A DNA stretch of 64,000 bases. It comes from Acidiphilium sp. C61 (GTDB lineage: Bacteria; Pseudomonadota; Alphaproteobacteria; Acetobacterales; Acetobacteraceae). Below are positions 16,970 to 63,544 of this stretch, piece by piece. Position 1 is the stretch's first letter, and each line of letters opens with the position of its first letter. Where the stretch lies: positions 682,001 through 746,000 of the forward strand of contig NZ_CACTIA010000005.1 in NCBI RefSeq assembly GCF_902712915.1. Direction: 5' to 3'. Below the pieces are notes generated by a model, which searched no databases, was not told where the DNA came from, and worked only from the letters and a program-made list of their open reading frames with translations. The position numbers and the translations under genes were made by a program.

Positions 16970-17709
16970 TCCCTTTCATCACTGCGGGGCTAGCCTCGCC
17001 CCATGGCTTTTTCTCCAGGCAAGGCGGCGTCTCTGAGGGCGCATATGACAGCCTGAACTGCGGGCAATATGGCAAGGACGATCCCCTGAACGTCGCCGAA
17101 AACCGGTCCCGCGCCATGCGCGCCATCGGCGGAATGCCCCACCGGCTGATCGGGCTGAAACAGGTGCACGGCGCGCGGGTCGTCCTGAACCCCGAACCTG
17201 GGGCCGCGATGATCGAAGCGGATGCGATGGTCACCGACCAGCCAGAGCTCGGCCTCGGCATCATCACCGCAGATTGCGCCCCGGTTCTGTTCAGCTCCGC
17301 TGATGGCAAAATCGTTGGCGCCGCTCATGCCGGATGGCGCGGCGCGGTCGCCGGCATTCTTGAGGAGACGGCAGAGCTGATGCGCGGGATCGGGGCTGAG
17401 GGAATAACCGCAGCGATCGGCCCATGCATTCACCAGGAAAGCTACGAGGTCGGAGCGGACATGAGGCAGGTTGTGCTTGACCGTGCAACTGAAGATACGC
17501 GCTTTTTTGCAGATGGCAGACCGGGTCACTGGCAATTCGATCTCCCCGGCTACTGTGCAGCGCGGCTTGCCGCGATCGGCGTCCAGACAATAATTCTTCC
17601 TCATGACACGCAGGCCGATGAAGCCGGCTATTTCTCACATCGTCGCCGGACCCTGCGCGGTGAGGGCGCGGGCGGACATCAGATATCGATCATCATGAGG
17701 CGTGCATGA
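16966..17709 (+). CDS. pgeF: Peptidoglycan editing factor PgeF (laccase-domain family)
   Basis: A 247-residue protein of the YfiH/PgeF family. The metal-site residues H68 (QVHGARVV), C104 (TADCAPVL) and H121 (AAHAGWRGAV) are present, with GPCIHQESYEVG following. PgeF removes wrong amino acids from peptidoglycan precursors; older annotations call it polyphenol oxidase. It overlaps its two neighbours by 4 bases each within the hldD-lgt run, which fits an envelope role. Confidence 0.93.
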   Translation: MIPFITAGLASPHGFFSRQGGVSEGAYDSLNCGQYGKDDPLNVAENRSRAMRAIGGMPHRLIGLKQVHGARVVLNPEPGAAMIEADAMVTDQPELGLGIITADCAPVLFSSADGKIVGAAHAGWRGAVAGILEETAELMRGIGAEGITAAIGPCIHQESYEVGADMRQVVLDRATEDTRFFADGRPGHWQFDLPGYCAARLAAIGVQTIILPHDTQADEAGYFSHRRRTLRGEGAGGHQISIIMRRA

Positions 17710-18641
17710 AACGCCTGCTCTGCATGGCTTTCACACTGTTGCTGGCCGGATGTGGGACGCTGCCACAACCCCTGCTCGGCAAGCCAGGGGCGGAGGGGGC
17801 GCGCCTCGCGGTACCGCCGCCGCCGGTTCTGGTCATTCCCCCCTCCCCTGCGACATTGCTCGGGAGCAATGGATCGAAAGCCTATGCTCACGCTCTGGCC
17901 CATGCGCTGGACGATCAGAACGTGCCGGCCATGGTCCGCACCCCGCGAAACTACGATTGGGAGCTTTTGGCGACGGCAACCACTTCCGCGGGGCTGACAA
18001 CGCCCGACTTCAAAATCATCGGGCCGAACCACAAAATATACGGCCACCTGACAGGCCAGCCCGTTGATGCCACCCGATGGGCAGAAGACGATCCTGCAAC
18101 CATCGCCCACGCTGCCACGTCGGCAGCACCACACCTCGCCAGGCAACTCGCTGCGATCAACGCCTCCGTGCAACAAAGCAATCCAGCCTCTCTCGAAAAT
18201 CGCCCCCCCCAGGTGATGCTCCTCGGCGTGACCGGCGCACCTGGCGACGGCGACCACGCCCTGAAACTCGATCTTTCGCGGACTCTGCCAAGACAGGGCA
18301 TTGTCATGGTCAAAGATAAATCCGACGCCGATTTTCTCGTCAGCGGACGCGTGAGGGTGAGCCCTCTCGACAAGACGAATCGGGACACCGAGAACAAGCT
18401 GGTCGAACTTGACTGGACGGTGAAAGACCGGCGCGGCAACTTCGTCGGCAAGGTATCCCAGCTACACGACCTGAAGAGCAGTGAAATGGCTCCGTATTGG
18501 GGCGATGTCGCTGCCGCGGCGGCACAGCAGGCGGCGCTGGGACTGAAGCAGGTTATCCGGAACGCAACGTTGCGGCATGACGCTGCGGCGAAGACTGGCA
18601 ACAAACTCCGGAAGGATCCCATAACGGTGCAACAGCCGTGA
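17706..18641 (+). CDS. Hypothetical lipoprotein
   Basis: A 311-residue protein with a short signal peptide and the lipobox LLAGC (C16). The mature chain starts with a proline-rich stretch and contains a VMVKDKSDADFLVSGRVRV region resembling an all-beta periplasmic domain. I do not recognise a characterised family. It is the last of five genes joined by 4-base overlaps after hldD, so lgt in the same transcript may process it. Its final 89 bases overlap the 3' end of the Hint-protein gene on the other strand. Confidence 0.8.
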   Translation: MKRLLCMAFTLLLAGCGTLPQPLLGKPGAEGARLAVPPPPVLVIPPSPATLLGSNGSKAYAHALAHALDDQNVPAMVRTPRNYDWELLATATTSAGLTTPDFKIIGPNHKIYGHLTGQPVDATRWAEDDPATIAHAATSAAPHLARQLAAINASVQQSNPASLENRPPQVMLLGVTGAPGDGDHALKLDLSRTLPRQGIVMVKDKSDADFLVSGRVRVSPLDKTNRDTENKLVELDWTVKDRRGNFVGKVSQLHDLKSSEMAPYWGDVAAAAAQQAALGLKQVIRNATLRHDAAAKTGNKLRKDPITVQQP

Positions 18642-20787
18642 CGTGAAAGGCCAGCGCTTTCGCGCCACGAACATTCAGCAGAGCCGCCCCGTCCGTCCAT
18701 CTGAAACAATCAGGCCCAATATTCTCAGGATCGTGAAATCCGGATTCGAACAATCCGGCAAGCATGCCGACCGGGGCCGAATCCAGCATTACGTGGTCAA
18801 TGGCTATCCCGAGTTTGCGCCAATCCTGCGAGACCGGGTCCAACTCAGCGGGGCGCGATGTTGAGGATATGATCGCGACCCTATGGGTTCCATGTGGCAA
18901 CCGATACACACTCATTGGAGCGGCACTGCTGTCTGGCACAAGAGCCTTGCCGCTTACACAGACTTGGAAATGGCCCGGTATCTGCCGAAAACCGCGCGCG
19001 ACAAGCCGGTATTGCAAAACAGTCCTGATGCGAGCGAGATGGGGCCCACCGTCGATTACGGGTGCGCAAACGTGTACCGGATCGCGAAAAGGAGGATTAA
19101 AGTTAGCAAACAACGTGATATAATTAATACCATCAGAAAATTGGTTCCGGTTTCCACAATCAAGGTAAGTCTCAACCGGCAGCATTTCAGCCAAAATTAC
19201 ATCATGATTTTCAAGCTCGATATGATGATACGTTACACTCGGCACGGATACCTGTCGTATCGAAAGTCCATTGATCAATTTTTTGATCTCGATCAGGTAT
19301 CCATCAATCCAGATCGCATGGTCCGGTGAGAGATAAAGATCCCGGCATGGTTGGCCAGAGCCGAAGGCATCCTTCTCGATCAGAACCGGCAGGACCAACT
19401 CTGGCGACCGGTGCCTGCGGCAATCCACCCGCCGCTGTCCATGCCAGATAATCTTGTGACGATCTCCGGTACGGGTAATGACGTGGTCCCCTTCGCACAA
19501 GGTTTCCACTAGCCGCAATCCGTCCGGGGTCAACAGCCGGGTGCCTTGCCTGAAACATGGAACAACGATCTCTACGGTTTTCGGATTGGTCCCACTGACA
19601 GCCTGGACGGCCAGTGAACCCGGCGCTGTTGAGAATGTAATCTGGTACGGCGTTTGCCCATCGTTGAGTGTCAGAACATTGCCTGTCACAGAACCGCTGA
19701 CCTGCTGGGTCTGTCCGTAACCCGTTATGTCAATTGTATCGCCGGCAGAGAACCCTCCAATAGTACCGGAAAACGGGTGCGCCTGGTTTAAAACGATATT
19801 TGAACCTGAACCTGTAAAATCTATTAACATTCCAGAGGTAACATTATTTGAAAAAGTAACATTTCCACCAGCCAGATCGATAATACCAGTACCAGATGCG
19901 ATAGTATTAAAATCTAAATTTGTTCCTGATGAAATAACTATCGTTCCATCATTTACAAATGGGGCCGAAATGGTCGAGCTGCCAGAAAACTGCCAATTTG
20001 CGCCTGCAGCAATCGAAACGGTGCTGAATTGTAGAAATTCCGCCAATGGATCGGAAAATGTTCCGGCAACGTTCCCACCAAACACGAGATCGGCAACCGA
20101 TCCGCCATAGACAAGGCCATCAAAGGTGGCGCCGGGCAAAATTGTCAATGTATCTGTCGGGGTTGCCGCAACACCTGAAGCAAAGGATATGGCAGCCCCC
20201 GAGCTTGCACTGACCATACCTCCTTGAATAATATCAACATAATTCTGGCCACTTGGCACCAGAATGCCTGTCGCTCCGTCAATTGTCCCCAGATTGGTCA
20301 ATTCAGCGACATTATTGAGTTCTACACCGACGCTACCCCCCTGTATCAGGGCTCCAACAAGATTTATCGCGCTTGCCGCTCCAATCTCCAGTCCAATGCC
20401 ACCGCTTCCGGCAGTAATCATGCCTGCATTCAGAAGCGAACTGCCCGTTACATCGCCACTCAATTTGACCGCAATCGAGCTTGAACTGACTATCGTGGCC
20501 AGTGCATTATTCTGAATGCCAAAAGCGCGACCCGTTGTGGATTGTATTGCGCCAAACGCTCCAGAAATCAGTCCTGAATTATCGATCTGGCCGCCTTCAT
20601 ACAGAACGATACCTTCGCCAGACGGCGCCACGAGACTCCCCGCGACATCAATGGTCCACACCGCCGGTGCGACAATCGCGTTTCCCGATGCCACGGCAAA
20701 ATTGCCCGTTACTGTAACCGGGTCAGCATACTGAGTTGATGAGAGCGAGATCTCTGTCGCCTGGCTCCCGGTAATCGTGTCAGACAT
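18553..20787 (-). CDS. Hint-domain (Hint_2) surface protein with beta-repeat passenger
   Basis: A 744-residue protein. Residues 1-400 are Gly/Ser/Thr/Ala-rich with no signal peptide and look like a beta-solenoid passenger (repeated G-T-I-D/G-A patterns). A Hint_2 domain begins at C411 (PCFRQGTRLLTPDG) and includes LSPDHAIWIDG with H490 and a closing VETYLDCGNR near 538-547. A C-terminal domain of the type seen in Acetobacteraceae Hint proteins (VCAPVIDGGPHLARIR) follows. Hint folds can self-cleave at the N-side of the cysteine; whether this one does is unknown. The passenger is clearly more AT-rich than neighbouring genes, suggesting transfer or relaxed codon use. The last roughly 30 residues are antisense to the lipoprotein gene. 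Confidence 0.85.
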   Translation of the reverse strand: MSDTITGSQATEISLSSTQYADPVTVTGNFAVASGNAIVAPAVWTIDVAGSLVAPSGEGIVLYEGGQIDNSGLISGAFGAIQSTTGRAFGIQNNALATIVSSSSIAVKLSGDVTGSSLLNAGMITAGSGGIGLEIGAASAINLVGALIQGGSVGVELNNVAELTNLGTIDGATGILVPSGQNYVDIIQGGMVSASSGAAISFASGVAATPTDTLTILPGATFDGLVYGGSVADLVFGGNVAGTFSDPLAEFLQFSTVSIAAGANWQFSGSSTISAPFVNDGTIVISSGTNLDFNTIASGTGIIDLAGGNVTFSNNVTSGMLIDFTGSGSNIVLNQAHPFSGTIGGFSAGDTIDITGYGQTQQVSGSVTGNVLTLNDGQTPYQITFSTAPGSLAVQAVSGTNPKTVEIVVPCFRQGTRLLTPDGLRLVETLCEGDHVITRTGDRHKIIWHGQRRVDCRRHRSPELVLPVLIEKDAFGSGQPCRDLYLSPDHAIWIDGYLIEIKKLINGLSIRQVSVPSVTYHHIELENHDVILAEMLPVETYLDCGNRNQFSDGINYITLFANFNPPFRDPVHVCAPVIDGGPHLARIRTVLQYRLVARGFRQIPGHFQVCVSGKALVPDSSAAPMSVYRLPHGTHRVAIISSTSRPAELDPVSQDWRKLGIAIDHVMLDSAPVGMLAGLFESGFHDPENIGPDCFRWTDGAALLNVRGAKALAFHVTAVAPLWDPSGVCCQSSPQRHAATLRSG

Positions 20788-25892: not shown

Positions 25893-26648
25893 ATGATCTC
25901 CCGCTCATCAAAACTGATCGGCATTTCGTGCTGCCGCAAGCTCTTTGGCATTTACGGCATGGTCAATCACGCTGCGTCGGATACCTATGTCCGCGCCGTC
26001 GATCTCGTGGTTGGGGGAATGCCTCTGCTCATTCCAGCAAACGGCGATCGGGCGCATATCGATACGCTTCTGGACCGGCTCGATGGACTGATCCTGACCG
26101 GCAGCCGCAGCAACGTCGCTGCCGTATTCTATGGCGGACCGCCGCAACCGCCTGAAGATGCGCCCGAGGACCCCGAGCGGGACCTCGTGACGCTGCCCCT
26201 CGTGCGCGGTGCCATCGAACGGGGCTTGCCGGTCCTGGCAATCTGTCGTGGCCTTCAGGAGCTTAACGTTGCTCTCGGCGGCACTCTGCACCAGCGCCTG
26301 CAGGACCTGCCGGGAAGAATCGACCACTCGACACCCATGCAGCCACACGGGCCGGTCAGGACCGGGAAAGCTCATCATGTCATCTTGCGCTCCGGTGGCC
26401 AGCTCGCGCGGATCGTCAAAAGCGAAGCTCTTTCTGTCAATTCCCTCCACAATCAGGGGATAGACCGGCTGGCTCCGGGCCTGCTGGTAGAGGCTCGCGC
26501 AACCGATGGCACCATCGAAGCGGTCACCGGCACGGGAGCGGGCTATCTCGTCGGTGTGCAATGGCACCCCGAATATGATTTCGAGCATGATGCAGCGTCG
26601 CGCCGCATATTTGAAAGCTTCGGTGCGGCAGTGGATAAAGCAGGCTGA
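25893..26648 (+). CDS. Gamma-glutamyl-gamma-aminobutyrate hydrolase-like (peptidase C26)
   Basis: A 251-residue class I glutamine amidotransferase-fold hydrolase. The nucleophile is C118 in LAICRGLQELNVALGG, and H225/E227 lie in VQWHPEYDF. This matches the PuuD/C26 group that hydrolyses gamma-glutamyl amides. No polyamine catabolism genes are adjacent, so the true substrate is open. Confidence 0.87.
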   Translation: MISRSSKLIGISCCRKLFGIYGMVNHAASDTYVRAVDLVVGGMPLLIPANGDRAHIDTLLDRLDGLILTGSRSNVAAVFYGGPPQPPEDAPEDPERDLVTLPLVRGAIERGLPVLAICRGLQELNVALGGTLHQRLQDLPGRIDHSTPMQPHGPVRTGKAHHVILRSGGQLARIVKSEALSVNSLHNQGIDRLAPGLLVEARATDGTIEAVTGTGAGYLVGVQWHPEYDFEHDAASRRIFESFGAAVDKAG

Positions 26649-32563: not shown

Positions 32564-32619
32564 GACCTTTGCGCCGGCCTGAGTAACGAGCGAATTGATC
32601 ACCTTGTCGTGGCAAGACG

Positions 32620-32647
32620 TCCGGTCAGATGGAAACATCTGACCGGA
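32620..32647. repeat. Hairpin repeat, copy C (short form), in a convergent junction
   Basis: A perfect 12-base stem (32620-32631 with 32636-32647) closed by a GAAA tetraloop of the GNRA class, in the 91-base gap where the DUF1150 gene and msrA converge. The arm TCCGGTCAGATG differs by one base from that of the two longer repeats at 56.8 and 63.5 kb. It probably serves as a transcript end for both strands. Confidence 0.8.
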
Positions 32648-32654
32648 TACTTCT

Positions 32655-46702: not shown

Positions 46703-47947
46703 ATGAATAGGGTCGTTTCACTTCTCATACGGCCGATGCGTTTGCTTGGACACCGCTGGTACCGGCGCCTGCGGATGGATCTGTGGTTTCCACATGTGCC
46801 GCTGGCGCTCGCAGTCGGCGTCGCTGGCGCACTCGCGATTCTGCCGACGATCCAGAAATTCGCTGCGGAATATCTTCATCTCGATCTGGCTAACCTGGTC
46901 AGCGCCATTCACCCGATTTCGGGAAATATTCCGGGCCTTATCCTCAACGGTGTTCCAACCGTCGTCGTTGGCGCACTCCAACTCCTGATCGCCATTGGGT
47001 TGCTGGGCCGCTCGCGTATCGCCTGGCTCTCGGCCATCGGGATCACGCTTGCCCAACTTCTGCTGACCGTTCATGTCCAGGCAGCGTCCAGACTCGATGG
47101 GGAAGCGATCTACATCATCGCCCTGCTGGCCTCGCTCCTGCTCGCACGCAACCACTTCTCCCGTTCTTCACTGGCCGCCGGCACGCTGTTCGCTGTGGCC
47201 TCGGTACTTGTCTTGATGGTGTACGGGGTGCTCGGTTCACTGCTTCTCGGCGCCGGCTTCAACCCGCCAATCACCAATCTGCCGTCAGCGCTTTATTTTG
47301 TTATCGTCACGATGTCGACCGTGGGGTATGGCGACATCCTCCCCAAGAGCGAGAACGCGCGGCTTTTCGTCGTCTCGCTCATCGTGCTCGGACTGACGGT
47401 CTTCGCAACCGCACTGACTGCCGTGATCGGCCCGGTTCTGCAGAATCGGATAAACCGGACGATCGGCCCCCGGAGGCAGAAAATGAAACGCGTCAACCAC
47501 TTCATCATTTCCGGCCATGGCGTCCTTGCCCGAAATACAGCCCGCGAACTGCGCAATCGTGGAGAATCCGTGATTGTCATAACGGAATTCGAGGATGCGA
47601 GTTTCGGCGATGCCGAGACGGTGATCGGCGATCCCACCGACCTCGATACGCTCCGCAAAGCCGGTGGCGAGCATGCACGGGCGATTCTTGCCCTTTCGGA
47701 TGACGACTCGGAAAATGCCTTTGTCGTTCTCGCGGTCCGGGAACTGGGCACGGATGCCAAAAAGGTGGCCGCGGTGAGTACCCGCAAGAATCTCGAGCGC
47801 GTCCGACGGGTTCACCCCGACATGGTTCTCGCTGCCCCAGTCTTCGGCAGCGAGGTGCTGGCAATGGCCCTCACGGAGGAGAAAATCGATGGGGACTGGC
47901 TTCTCAGCCGGTTCCTCGATGTTCGCCCCCATGAAGACAATACCTGA
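46703..47947 (+). CDS. Voltage-gated-type potassium channel with TrkA-N (RCK) domain
   Basis: A 414-residue Kch-like channel. Several N-terminal membrane segments are followed by the pore with selectivity filter TVGYGD at residues 206-211, then a cytoplasmic Rossmann RCK domain (HFIISGHGVLARNTARELRNRG) that gates on nucleotides or ions. I start at ATG 46703 with AAGGG 7 bases upstream; ATG 46679 lacks a site. It faces the degenerate GGDEF gene with a 24-base convergent gap. Confidence 0.87.
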   Translation: MNRVVSLLIRPMRLLGHRWYRRLRMDLWFPHVPLALAVGVAGALAILPTIQKFAAEYLHLDLANLVSAIHPISGNIPGLILNGVPTVVVGALQLLIAIGLLGRSRIAWLSAIGITLAQLLLTVHVQAASRLDGEAIYIIALLASLLLARNHFSRSSLAAGTLFAVASVLVLMVYGVLGSLLLGAGFNPPITNLPSALYFVIVTMSTVGYGDILPKSENARLFVVSLIVLGLTVFATALTAVIGPVLQNRINRTIGPRRQKMKRVNHFIISGHGVLARNTARELRNRGESVIVITEFEDASFGDAETVIGDPTDLDTLRKAGGEHARAILALSDDDSENAFVVLAVRELGTDAKKVAAVSTRKNLERVRRVHPDMVLAAPVFGSEVLAMALTEEKIDGDWLLSRFLDVRPHEDNT

Positions 47948-56758: not shown

Positions 56759-56787
56759 GCGCCGGGACACCGGCCAGTTTCAGAATA

Positions 56788-56886
56788 TTATCCGATCAGA
56801 TGGAGTTATCTGATCGGATAAAAATATTATTTTTATCAATATTATAGAGCACTACATCCGATCCAAAAGGATCCGATGTAGTACTC
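56788..56886. repeat. Double-hairpin repeat, copy A, in a convergent junction
   Basis: Hairpin 1 is a perfect 14-base stem (56788-56801 with 56808-56821). An AT-rich linker (56822-56846) follows, then hairpin 2 (56847-56864 with 56869-56886; 18 bases, two mismatches, AAAA loop). The linker gives an A/T tract beyond each hairpin on either strand, as expected of a bidirectional terminator. Confidence 0.85.
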
Positions 56887-56900
56887 CAGAGAAGCCCGTC

Positions 56901-63118: not shown

Positions 63119-63421
63119 ATGAAGCGAACCAGCATCATCGTCGGCGGTGCGATGGCCGCCTGTGTTGTCCTCGCCGCGACCAGCGTCGCCCAAGCCGACT
63201 GGGATGGCGGCCCGAGCTTTTCAATCGGCTTTGCCGGCCCGCCGGCCTATTACGCGCCGCCGCCGCCTCCGGTCTATTACGCGCCGCCCCCACCCCGCTA
63301 CTACGCACCGCCGCCACCGGCCTATTATGCGCCACCGCCGCCGGCGTATTATGCGCCGTCCTTCCCGGCCGGCCTGTCCTTCGGCTTCAGCCTGCCGTTG
63401 GGCCACGACGACGATCACTAG
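63119..63421 (+). CDS. Small secreted protein with YYAPPPP repeats
   Basis: A 100-residue protein with a signal peptide (cut near AQA-DWDGG). The centre has five YYAP units spaced 7-9 residues apart with runs of four or five prolines, then FPAGLSFGFSLPLGHDDDH with an acidic/His end. It resembles small Tyr/Pro-rich exported proteins of Acetobacteraceae; no function is known. AGGAG precedes the ATG. Confidence 0.8.
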   Translation: MKRTSIIVGGAMAACVVLAATSVAQADWDGGPSFSIGFAGPPAYYAPPPPPVYYAPPPPRYYAPPPPAYYAPPPPAYYAPSFPAGLSFGFSLPLGHDDDH

Positions 63422-63457
63422 AGGATCGTCCGATCAGCTAGAGGATCGTCCGATCAG
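63418..63457 (+). repeat. 20-base tandem duplication over the stop codon
   Basis: CTAGAGGATCGTCCGATCAG is present twice, end to end (63418-63437 and 63438-63457). The first copy contains the TAG stop of the YYAPPPP gene, and the second runs into the start of repeat copy B. Confidence 0.92.
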
Positions 63458-63544
63458 ATGGAACCATTTGATTAGGCAAAGATACTATTTTTATCAATAC
63501 AATAGAGCGCTACACCCGATCCGAAGGGATCGGGAAGTGCTCTA
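63449..63544. repeat. Double-hairpin repeat, copy B, in a convergent junction
   Basis: About three quarters identical to copy A over its whole length, including the linker TATTTTTATCAATA. Hairpin 1 is partly decayed. Hairpin 2 keeps its inner stem as CCCGATCC with GGATCGGG, where copy A has CATCCGATCC with GGATCCGATG, so both arms have changed while pairing is kept. It lies between two converging genes. Confidence 0.85.

Follow-up and report, generated by a model that had tools for sequence, protein, structure and literature searches.

The window, a 64,000-nt stretch of the genome of Acidiphilium sp. C61, holds three copies of a hairpin-forming repeat, each of them between two convergent genes. 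Copy 1 (56782..56888, + strand; nhmmer 76.8 bits) is a double-hairpin element whose minimum-free-energy fold places one hairpin, H1, at 56788..56821 and another, H2, at 56847..56886 (both + strand), with an AT-rich linker containing TATCAAT between them (56822..56846, +); it lies between a cobalamin adenosyltransferase gene (PF01923, +) and a gene without a Pfam match (-). Copy 2 (63439..63544, +; 80.9 bits) is also a double hairpin, runs from TA to TA, and has its left end repeated once more just ahead of it as a 20-bp duplicate (63419..63438, +); its convergent neighbours are a 100-aa gene without a Pfam match and a FLAD1_M gene (PF24102). Copy 3 (32619..32648, +), between a DUF1150 gene (PF06620, +) and an MsrA gene (PF01625, -), is a solo and degenerate H1 hairpin that scores 18.5 bits (E 8e-4) against the element profile, under the 25-bit threshold for counting. 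Copies 1 and 2 align with 78 per cent identity over 92 nt. As + strand RNA, copies 1, 2 and 3 fold with z scores of -9.65, -7.03 and -7.57, and 0/200 shuffles folded as well as the native sequence in each case; copy 2 reaches -3.83 on the - strand. The earlier note had reported three copies at these positions, and sequence, profile scores and folds (z -7.0 to -9.7, + strand) all agree with it. Rfam gave no match at gathering score within the window.

Elsewhere in the window, the Bax1-I gene (842-1612) lies downstream of PTS genes (EIIA-man ends at 478, and a further ORF spans 475-768). Two candidate convergent junctions carry no copy: a tight one at 47947/47972 and, unless a gene intervenes, the gap between an exonuclease-family ORF (to 28160) and IF-3 (from 28800). 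Ahead of copy 2, the 100-aa ORF has in its 3' part five 29-nt repeats with 24-27-bp spacing (63239-63366) that encode a Pro/Tyr-rich tract. An 89-nt overlap of 3' ends (18553-18641) is shared by an ORF without a Pfam match (17706-18641, +) and a Hint_2 ORF (18553-20787, -).

The complete element is ∼105 bp long and consists of H1, the AT-rich linker and H2, with the ends TAGAGC...GCTCTA. Its consensus was drawn from 26 aligned copies, two from the window and 24 from a sister genome, the MAG SKS3.bin60 (L001, hereafter G001), which is the best relative that the adenosyltransferase retrieved and is 89 per cent identical over 17 kb. The consensus begins with H1 (TAGAGC-ATC-ATCCGATCAGATG-GAGT-CATCTGATCGGAT-AAA-GATGCTCT), continues through the linker (GATTATCAATATCA) and closes with H2 (TAGAGCACTACA-TCCGATCC-GGAT-GGATCGGA-AAGTGCTCTA). 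Each hairpin is flanked by TAGAGC-like and GCTCT-like ends, TA stands at both ends of well-preserved copies, and TATCA occurs in most of the 26 aligned copies; H1 and H2 are dissimilar, and the outer ends do not form one perfect TIR pair. RNAalifold on this alignment gave 33 pairs, 8 of them with a double pair-keeping change, and a slight covariation term of -0.12 kcal/mol. An IHF site in the linker was considered, but by eye the linker does not fit the consensus.

Of the 13 genomes of the genus, five (G001 among them) matched the element query and eight did not. In G001 (778,564 bp) there are 29 sites of at least 25 bits, 14 of them near full length; copies there are numerous and better preserved. 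The pattern TAGAGCAN{2,6}TCCGATC has 118 matches in G001 and 72 in the congener G005, and none in either when reversed as a control. Solo H1, solo H2, tandem arrays and an inverted copy all exist, some at orthologous junctions. With one exception in G007 and none in G009, the matches listed for these two genomes cover H1 alone, which suggests that H1 either spreads independently of H2 or represents the older unit. The H1 loop often reads GANTC (N being G, A or C): among hairpins that a single regular expression matched in stretches of three genomes, it does so in 10/12 for G001, 18/19 for G005 and 5/6 for G007, 33/37 in total with both-strand matches halved; the window copies have GANTC in 0/3. 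A RAMA-domain protein, inferred to be CcrM-like, was matched once in each of six genomes examined. In G047, which is of the same family but was not one of the 13 genomes taken as the genus, the two-hairpin design recurs with another linker, TTCATCAAATGGA, and without a GANTC loop in the printed sequences (L268, L270, L276). Several G005 copies (L181, L195, L196, L202 and L204; for example L195:8313-8423) adjoin the same GTGTCC, and paired copies there enclose ∼110 bp from GTGTCC to GGACAC, which may be a composite or a further small element.

Junctions were counted at sites of at least 25 bits with a Markov gene caller of our own, whose calls contain errors. Dropped from the counts were L189 (it overlaps L195), sites below 25 bits including window copy 3, and, in G001 as in G005, the single site called inside a gene; the window sites were left out of the G001 statistics, and the G005 sites are mostly those among the matches listed. 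G001 has 15 convergent, 9 tandem and 4 divergent junctions (n = 28), and G005 has 12, 20 and 2 (n = 34, mostly among the matches listed). The convergent share in G001 compares with 19.7 per cent expected from element-free intergenic length (p = 6.9e-5; by junction count p = 7.1e-6), and the 12/34 of G005, mostly among the matches listed, with 16.3 per cent expected by length (p = 0.0057; by count p = 0.019). Divergent gaps are clearly depleted of the element in G005 (2/34, mostly among the matches listed), with p = 0.002 against intergenic length and p = 0.03 against junction count. In G001 this depletion is weak: p = 0.028 against length, 0.11 when gaps of at least 20 nt are taken, and 0.52 against junction count. 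Inside-gene calls make up 1/29 sites in G001 and 1/39 in G005 (the latter mostly among the matches listed), and the one in G001, C23:215054, may be an error of the gene caller, its G005 ortholog having been called divergent. Once the element is removed, 5/9 tandem junctions in G001 are shorter than 30 nt, against 298/528 (56 per cent) of the tandem pairs in the sample of G001 and window; the corresponding figures for G005 are 7/20 (mostly among the matches listed) against a background of 105/191. One such operon-like site is common to both genomes (C54:67115 = L209).

A dispersed element that prefers convergent junctions, as the earlier note had proposed, is thus seen in both relatives. Its observation that every copy is convergent is true of the window and does not extend to these two genomes, where convergent, tandem and divergent gaps are all occupied; the 3/3 of the window is the favourable end of a real convergent bias.

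The terminal TAG (or CTA) of the element is the stop of a neighbouring gene at 15/29 sites in G001, compared with 6.6 per cent of available TAs (p = 6.6e-11), and at 12/39 in G005 (mostly among the matches listed), compared with 8.8 per cent (p = 8.5e-5), the available TAs including those in promoters; part of this signal could come from short truncations of gene ends. Where both ends are intact, the arrangement C-TA..TA-G is found at 6/21 sites, against 4.1 per cent of intergenic TAs (p = 1.5e-4). At L197 and L203 in G005 both convergent genes end within the element. In the congener G004 the counterpart of L203 is empty: with the G005 reading frames applied, the TAA stops of the two genes overlap as TTAA around a single TA. 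In place of this one TA, the filled site in G005 carries the entire element, with two TAG stops; the comparison is imperfect in that a further difference of 3 nt (one codon) lies in the right flank next to the TA. The second empty site is in the window, where a peptidase C26 gene ends in TGA (26646..26648, +; G001 alignment). The G001 counterpart of this gene has its stop within a 42-bp one-hairpin copy at C23:2244, and when the element and one TA are taken out the two sequences align free of gaps, with TA opposite TG of the window. Both empty sites fit TA insertion, neither perfectly. At copy 2, the TAG of the left-end duplicate is the stop of the upstream ORF (63119-63421), and the sister ORF has the same last residue and then TGA. 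At an exonuclease-gene junction that is filled in G005 and unoccupied in G004, G001 has ∼1.3 kb (L298:2111-3433) comprising an AT-rich stretch and a 335-aa ORF.

The ends of the element resemble those of IS630 insertion sequences. The outer end of H1 matches 21/24 positions of L262, an IS630 fragment in the congener G010, the best of 19,141 TA-starting control 24-mers outside elements being 16/24; the outer end of H2 matches an IS630 end in G005 (L261) at 19/24, a comparison made without a control. Of eight IS630 ends scored against H1, all chosen for a TAGAGC start, two exceed the control maximum of 16 (21 and 18 of 24) and six score 14-16. The best match, L262, is cut by a contig start and comes from a genome without a match to the element query. 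Among 30 IS630 loci of congeners, five (L242, L243, L244, L249 and L260) have TAGAGC...GCTCTA ∼1.05 kb apart around the transposase, and others have one such end. The complete example is L244:1372-2427 in G005 (1056 bp), with the DDE_3 and HTH domains in separate ORFs. G005 has six DDE_3 (IS630) matches, one with the 19/24 H2-type end, and the copy-rich G001 assembly has none. When an autonomous IS with the exact ends was sought by pattern, allowing one mismatch, in 120 genomes of the family, matches arose in G001 and G047, and the five G047 loci show hairpins of the element, both of them visible in L268, L270 and L276. CTAG is an IS630 target. For ISY100, of the IS630 family, TA is named as the target, and the purified transposase inserts almost only at TA, which is duplicated (PMC2170065).

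The three window junctions differ from their counterparts in the sister genome. The copy 1 junction in G001 carries the element in the opposite orientation, that of copy 2 has a short hairpin alone (z -3.2) with ATCCGATCC in common with H2, and that of copy 3 has a two-hairpin copy, compared with the half copy in the window. All three thus have a hairpin in G001 too, of other make-up or orientation, and such persistence with changing make-up at orthologous junctions fits either hot-spot insertion or selection for some hairpin.

A functional reading, put forward in the earlier note, is that the repeat serves as a bidirectional transcript end. A bidirectional terminator or attenuator of whatever origin, selectively kept at convergent junctions, is favoured by the convergent enrichment itself, very stable hairpins with double changes that keep their pairing, and G001 hairpins at all three window junctions, once in opposite orientation. 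Copies 1 and 3, whose tails are weak (AAATATTATT and ACTTCTTTAC), and part of copy 2 (63517-63505, - strand) are also picked out as terminator-like by a simple scan. In two stretches that were scanned, however, terminator-like sites show no excess over shuffles (11 against a mean of 12.0, and 8 against 15.4), and at least five T in the eight bases after an outer end were found at 1/62 flanks in G001 and the window and 0/78 in G005 (the latter mostly among the matches listed). These 140 flanks are those of the outer ends and do not include linker-side tails, and the linkers of window copies 1 and 2 do contain TTTTT. A canonical intrinsic terminator was rejected on these two grounds. The missing U-tract is not decisive in this lineage, since U-tract terminators are rare even where the element is absent: over convergent gaps of 35 to 600 nt (sequence including 15-nt margins), a hairpin with U-tract is present at 4/97 element-free junctions in G001 and 2/57 in G005, against 3/388 and 4/228 of their dinucleotide shuffles. 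Element-bearing junctions have it at 1/15 in G001 and 1/12 in G005 (mostly among the matches listed), and the two groups are therefore not separated. Further against a selected terminator, operon-like tandem gaps are occupied in G001 and G005, once at the same site in both; 101/116 convergent junctions in the G001 sample have no site of at least 25 bits, nor do 57/59 in 18 evenly spaced 20-kb stretches of G005, which have three such sites at two convergent junctions; and the genus includes eight genomes with no match to the query. The near absence of U-tracts from the outer flanks and the occupation of operon-like gaps, which G001 does not avoid, give no support to a dedicated terminator, and selective retention in this role seems unlikely. 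A terminator role is a possibility, and the element may have a weak effect on 3' ends.

Two other explanations concern how the copies arrived and why they stayed. Paired palindromes, some of them in arrays, recall REP/REPIN-type repeats moved by a RAYT (Y1) transposase, but the element has TA ends, and PF01797 (RAYT) was matched in 0/5 element-carrying genomes of the genus, yet in 4/8 without the element; such an origin is highly improbable and was ruled out on the carriers. It is conceivable, if somewhat doubtful, that tolerance alone shaped the distribution, with random insertion, purifying selection clearing genes and promoters, and no preference for stop codons. The divergent depletion in G005 and the scarcity of inside-gene sites in both genomes accord with it, and the convergent excess of the pneumococcal RUP, BOX and IS elements was read as tolerance by Croucher et al. 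(PMC3049150). It is less easily reconciled with the excess of flush stops over available TAs, although that null counts promoter TAs which selection would clear, and with the weak divergent depletion in G001. As a matter of simple arithmetic, the per-stop expectation for convergent sites among convergent and tandem ones is about one third; G001 has 15/24, and so something beyond tolerance at 3' ends may act.

The element is probably a non-autonomous MITE of the IS630/Tc1-mariner type, ∼105 bp long, that inserts at TA and into stop codons. Each hairpin would approximate a pair of IS630-like ends set back to back, and an IS630 transposase acting in trans would cut at TAGAGC and paste the element into a TA. 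After insertion into a stop codon, the element's own TAG would become the stop of the gene. In these GC-rich genomes harmless TAs would be found chiefly in stop codons and 3' gaps, and a convergent junction, where two genes end and no promoter lies, would let copies survive. Clustering at convergent junctions would then arise mainly because insertion is harmless there: with TA insertion often inside a stop codon that is restored, copies would accumulate at places where gene ends come together. The location would then be explained by the IS630-like ends and by insertion at TA and at stop codons, with no need of a terminator role, and once transcribed the hairpins may incidentally slow polymerase or block RNA decay.

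Several known repeats are comparable. RIME and Bru-RS are similar in size to the element. By description they are likewise palindromic intergenic repeats, from Rhizobiales. Br-REP1 of Bradyrhizobium, with three palindromes and ∼200 intergenic sites, lies in overlapping 3' UTRs of convergent genes (PMC5082802); it differs in its core sequence, and IS630 occurs 0 times in the main text of that source as available. The functional parallel is RUP of Streptococcus pneumoniae, a 107-bp MITE related to IS630-Spn1 with an IS630-like TIR and a TA target (PMC2229807, PMC3049150), which is over-represented between convergent genes: 23 copies lie between convergent CDSs, and 65 lie upstream of one or more CDSs (P = 3.4e-7; PMC3049150). 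IS630-like ends, TA target and convergent excess are common to both. Unlike RUP, the present element has two hairpins and a linker, often a GANTC loop and a high-GC alphaproteobacterial host, and its partner IS was not found in G001 by the DDE_3 search.

Closest in form are the Caulobacter CcrM-associated CIR repeats (CIR1-CIR4), alphaproteobacterial and intergenic, ∼110 bp long, with two arms and a linker, GANTC in the terminal loop of one arm and TA termini (PMC2229807). In its passages on CIR that 2007 review names no TIR, and Delihas states there that the mechanism of mobility needs more information; a 2024 review places CIR among MITEs and calls them strictly intergenic (PMC10969869). The element shares the length of ∼105 bp, the two arms and linker, the TA termini, the intergenic location and the alphaproteobacterial host, and differs in its IS630-like ends; a GANTC loop is frequent in the matched hairpins of G001, G005 and G007 and absent from all three window copies. 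Likened through the description of CIR, the element is termed CIR-like rather than a CIR. In the literature within reach of the search, which most subscription papers were not, neither this element nor a CIR-like MITE that regenerates stop codons was described. A bolder and rather improbable extension casts the two-arm alphaproteobacterial repeats with GANTC, of which CIR is the type, as IS630 MITEs: they would insert at the TA within stop codons, regenerate the stop and later be domesticated as cell-cycle-dependent 3'-end or terminator modules. If so, convergent gene pairs would share one mobile, CcrM-methylatable hairpin as a common 3' end.

A repeat with IS630-like ends, fitting empty sites and stop-codon insertions would make the question of CIR mobility directly testable. 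It would also supply a simple, non-functional reason for hairpin repeats at convergent junctions, where a terminator role is readily assumed.
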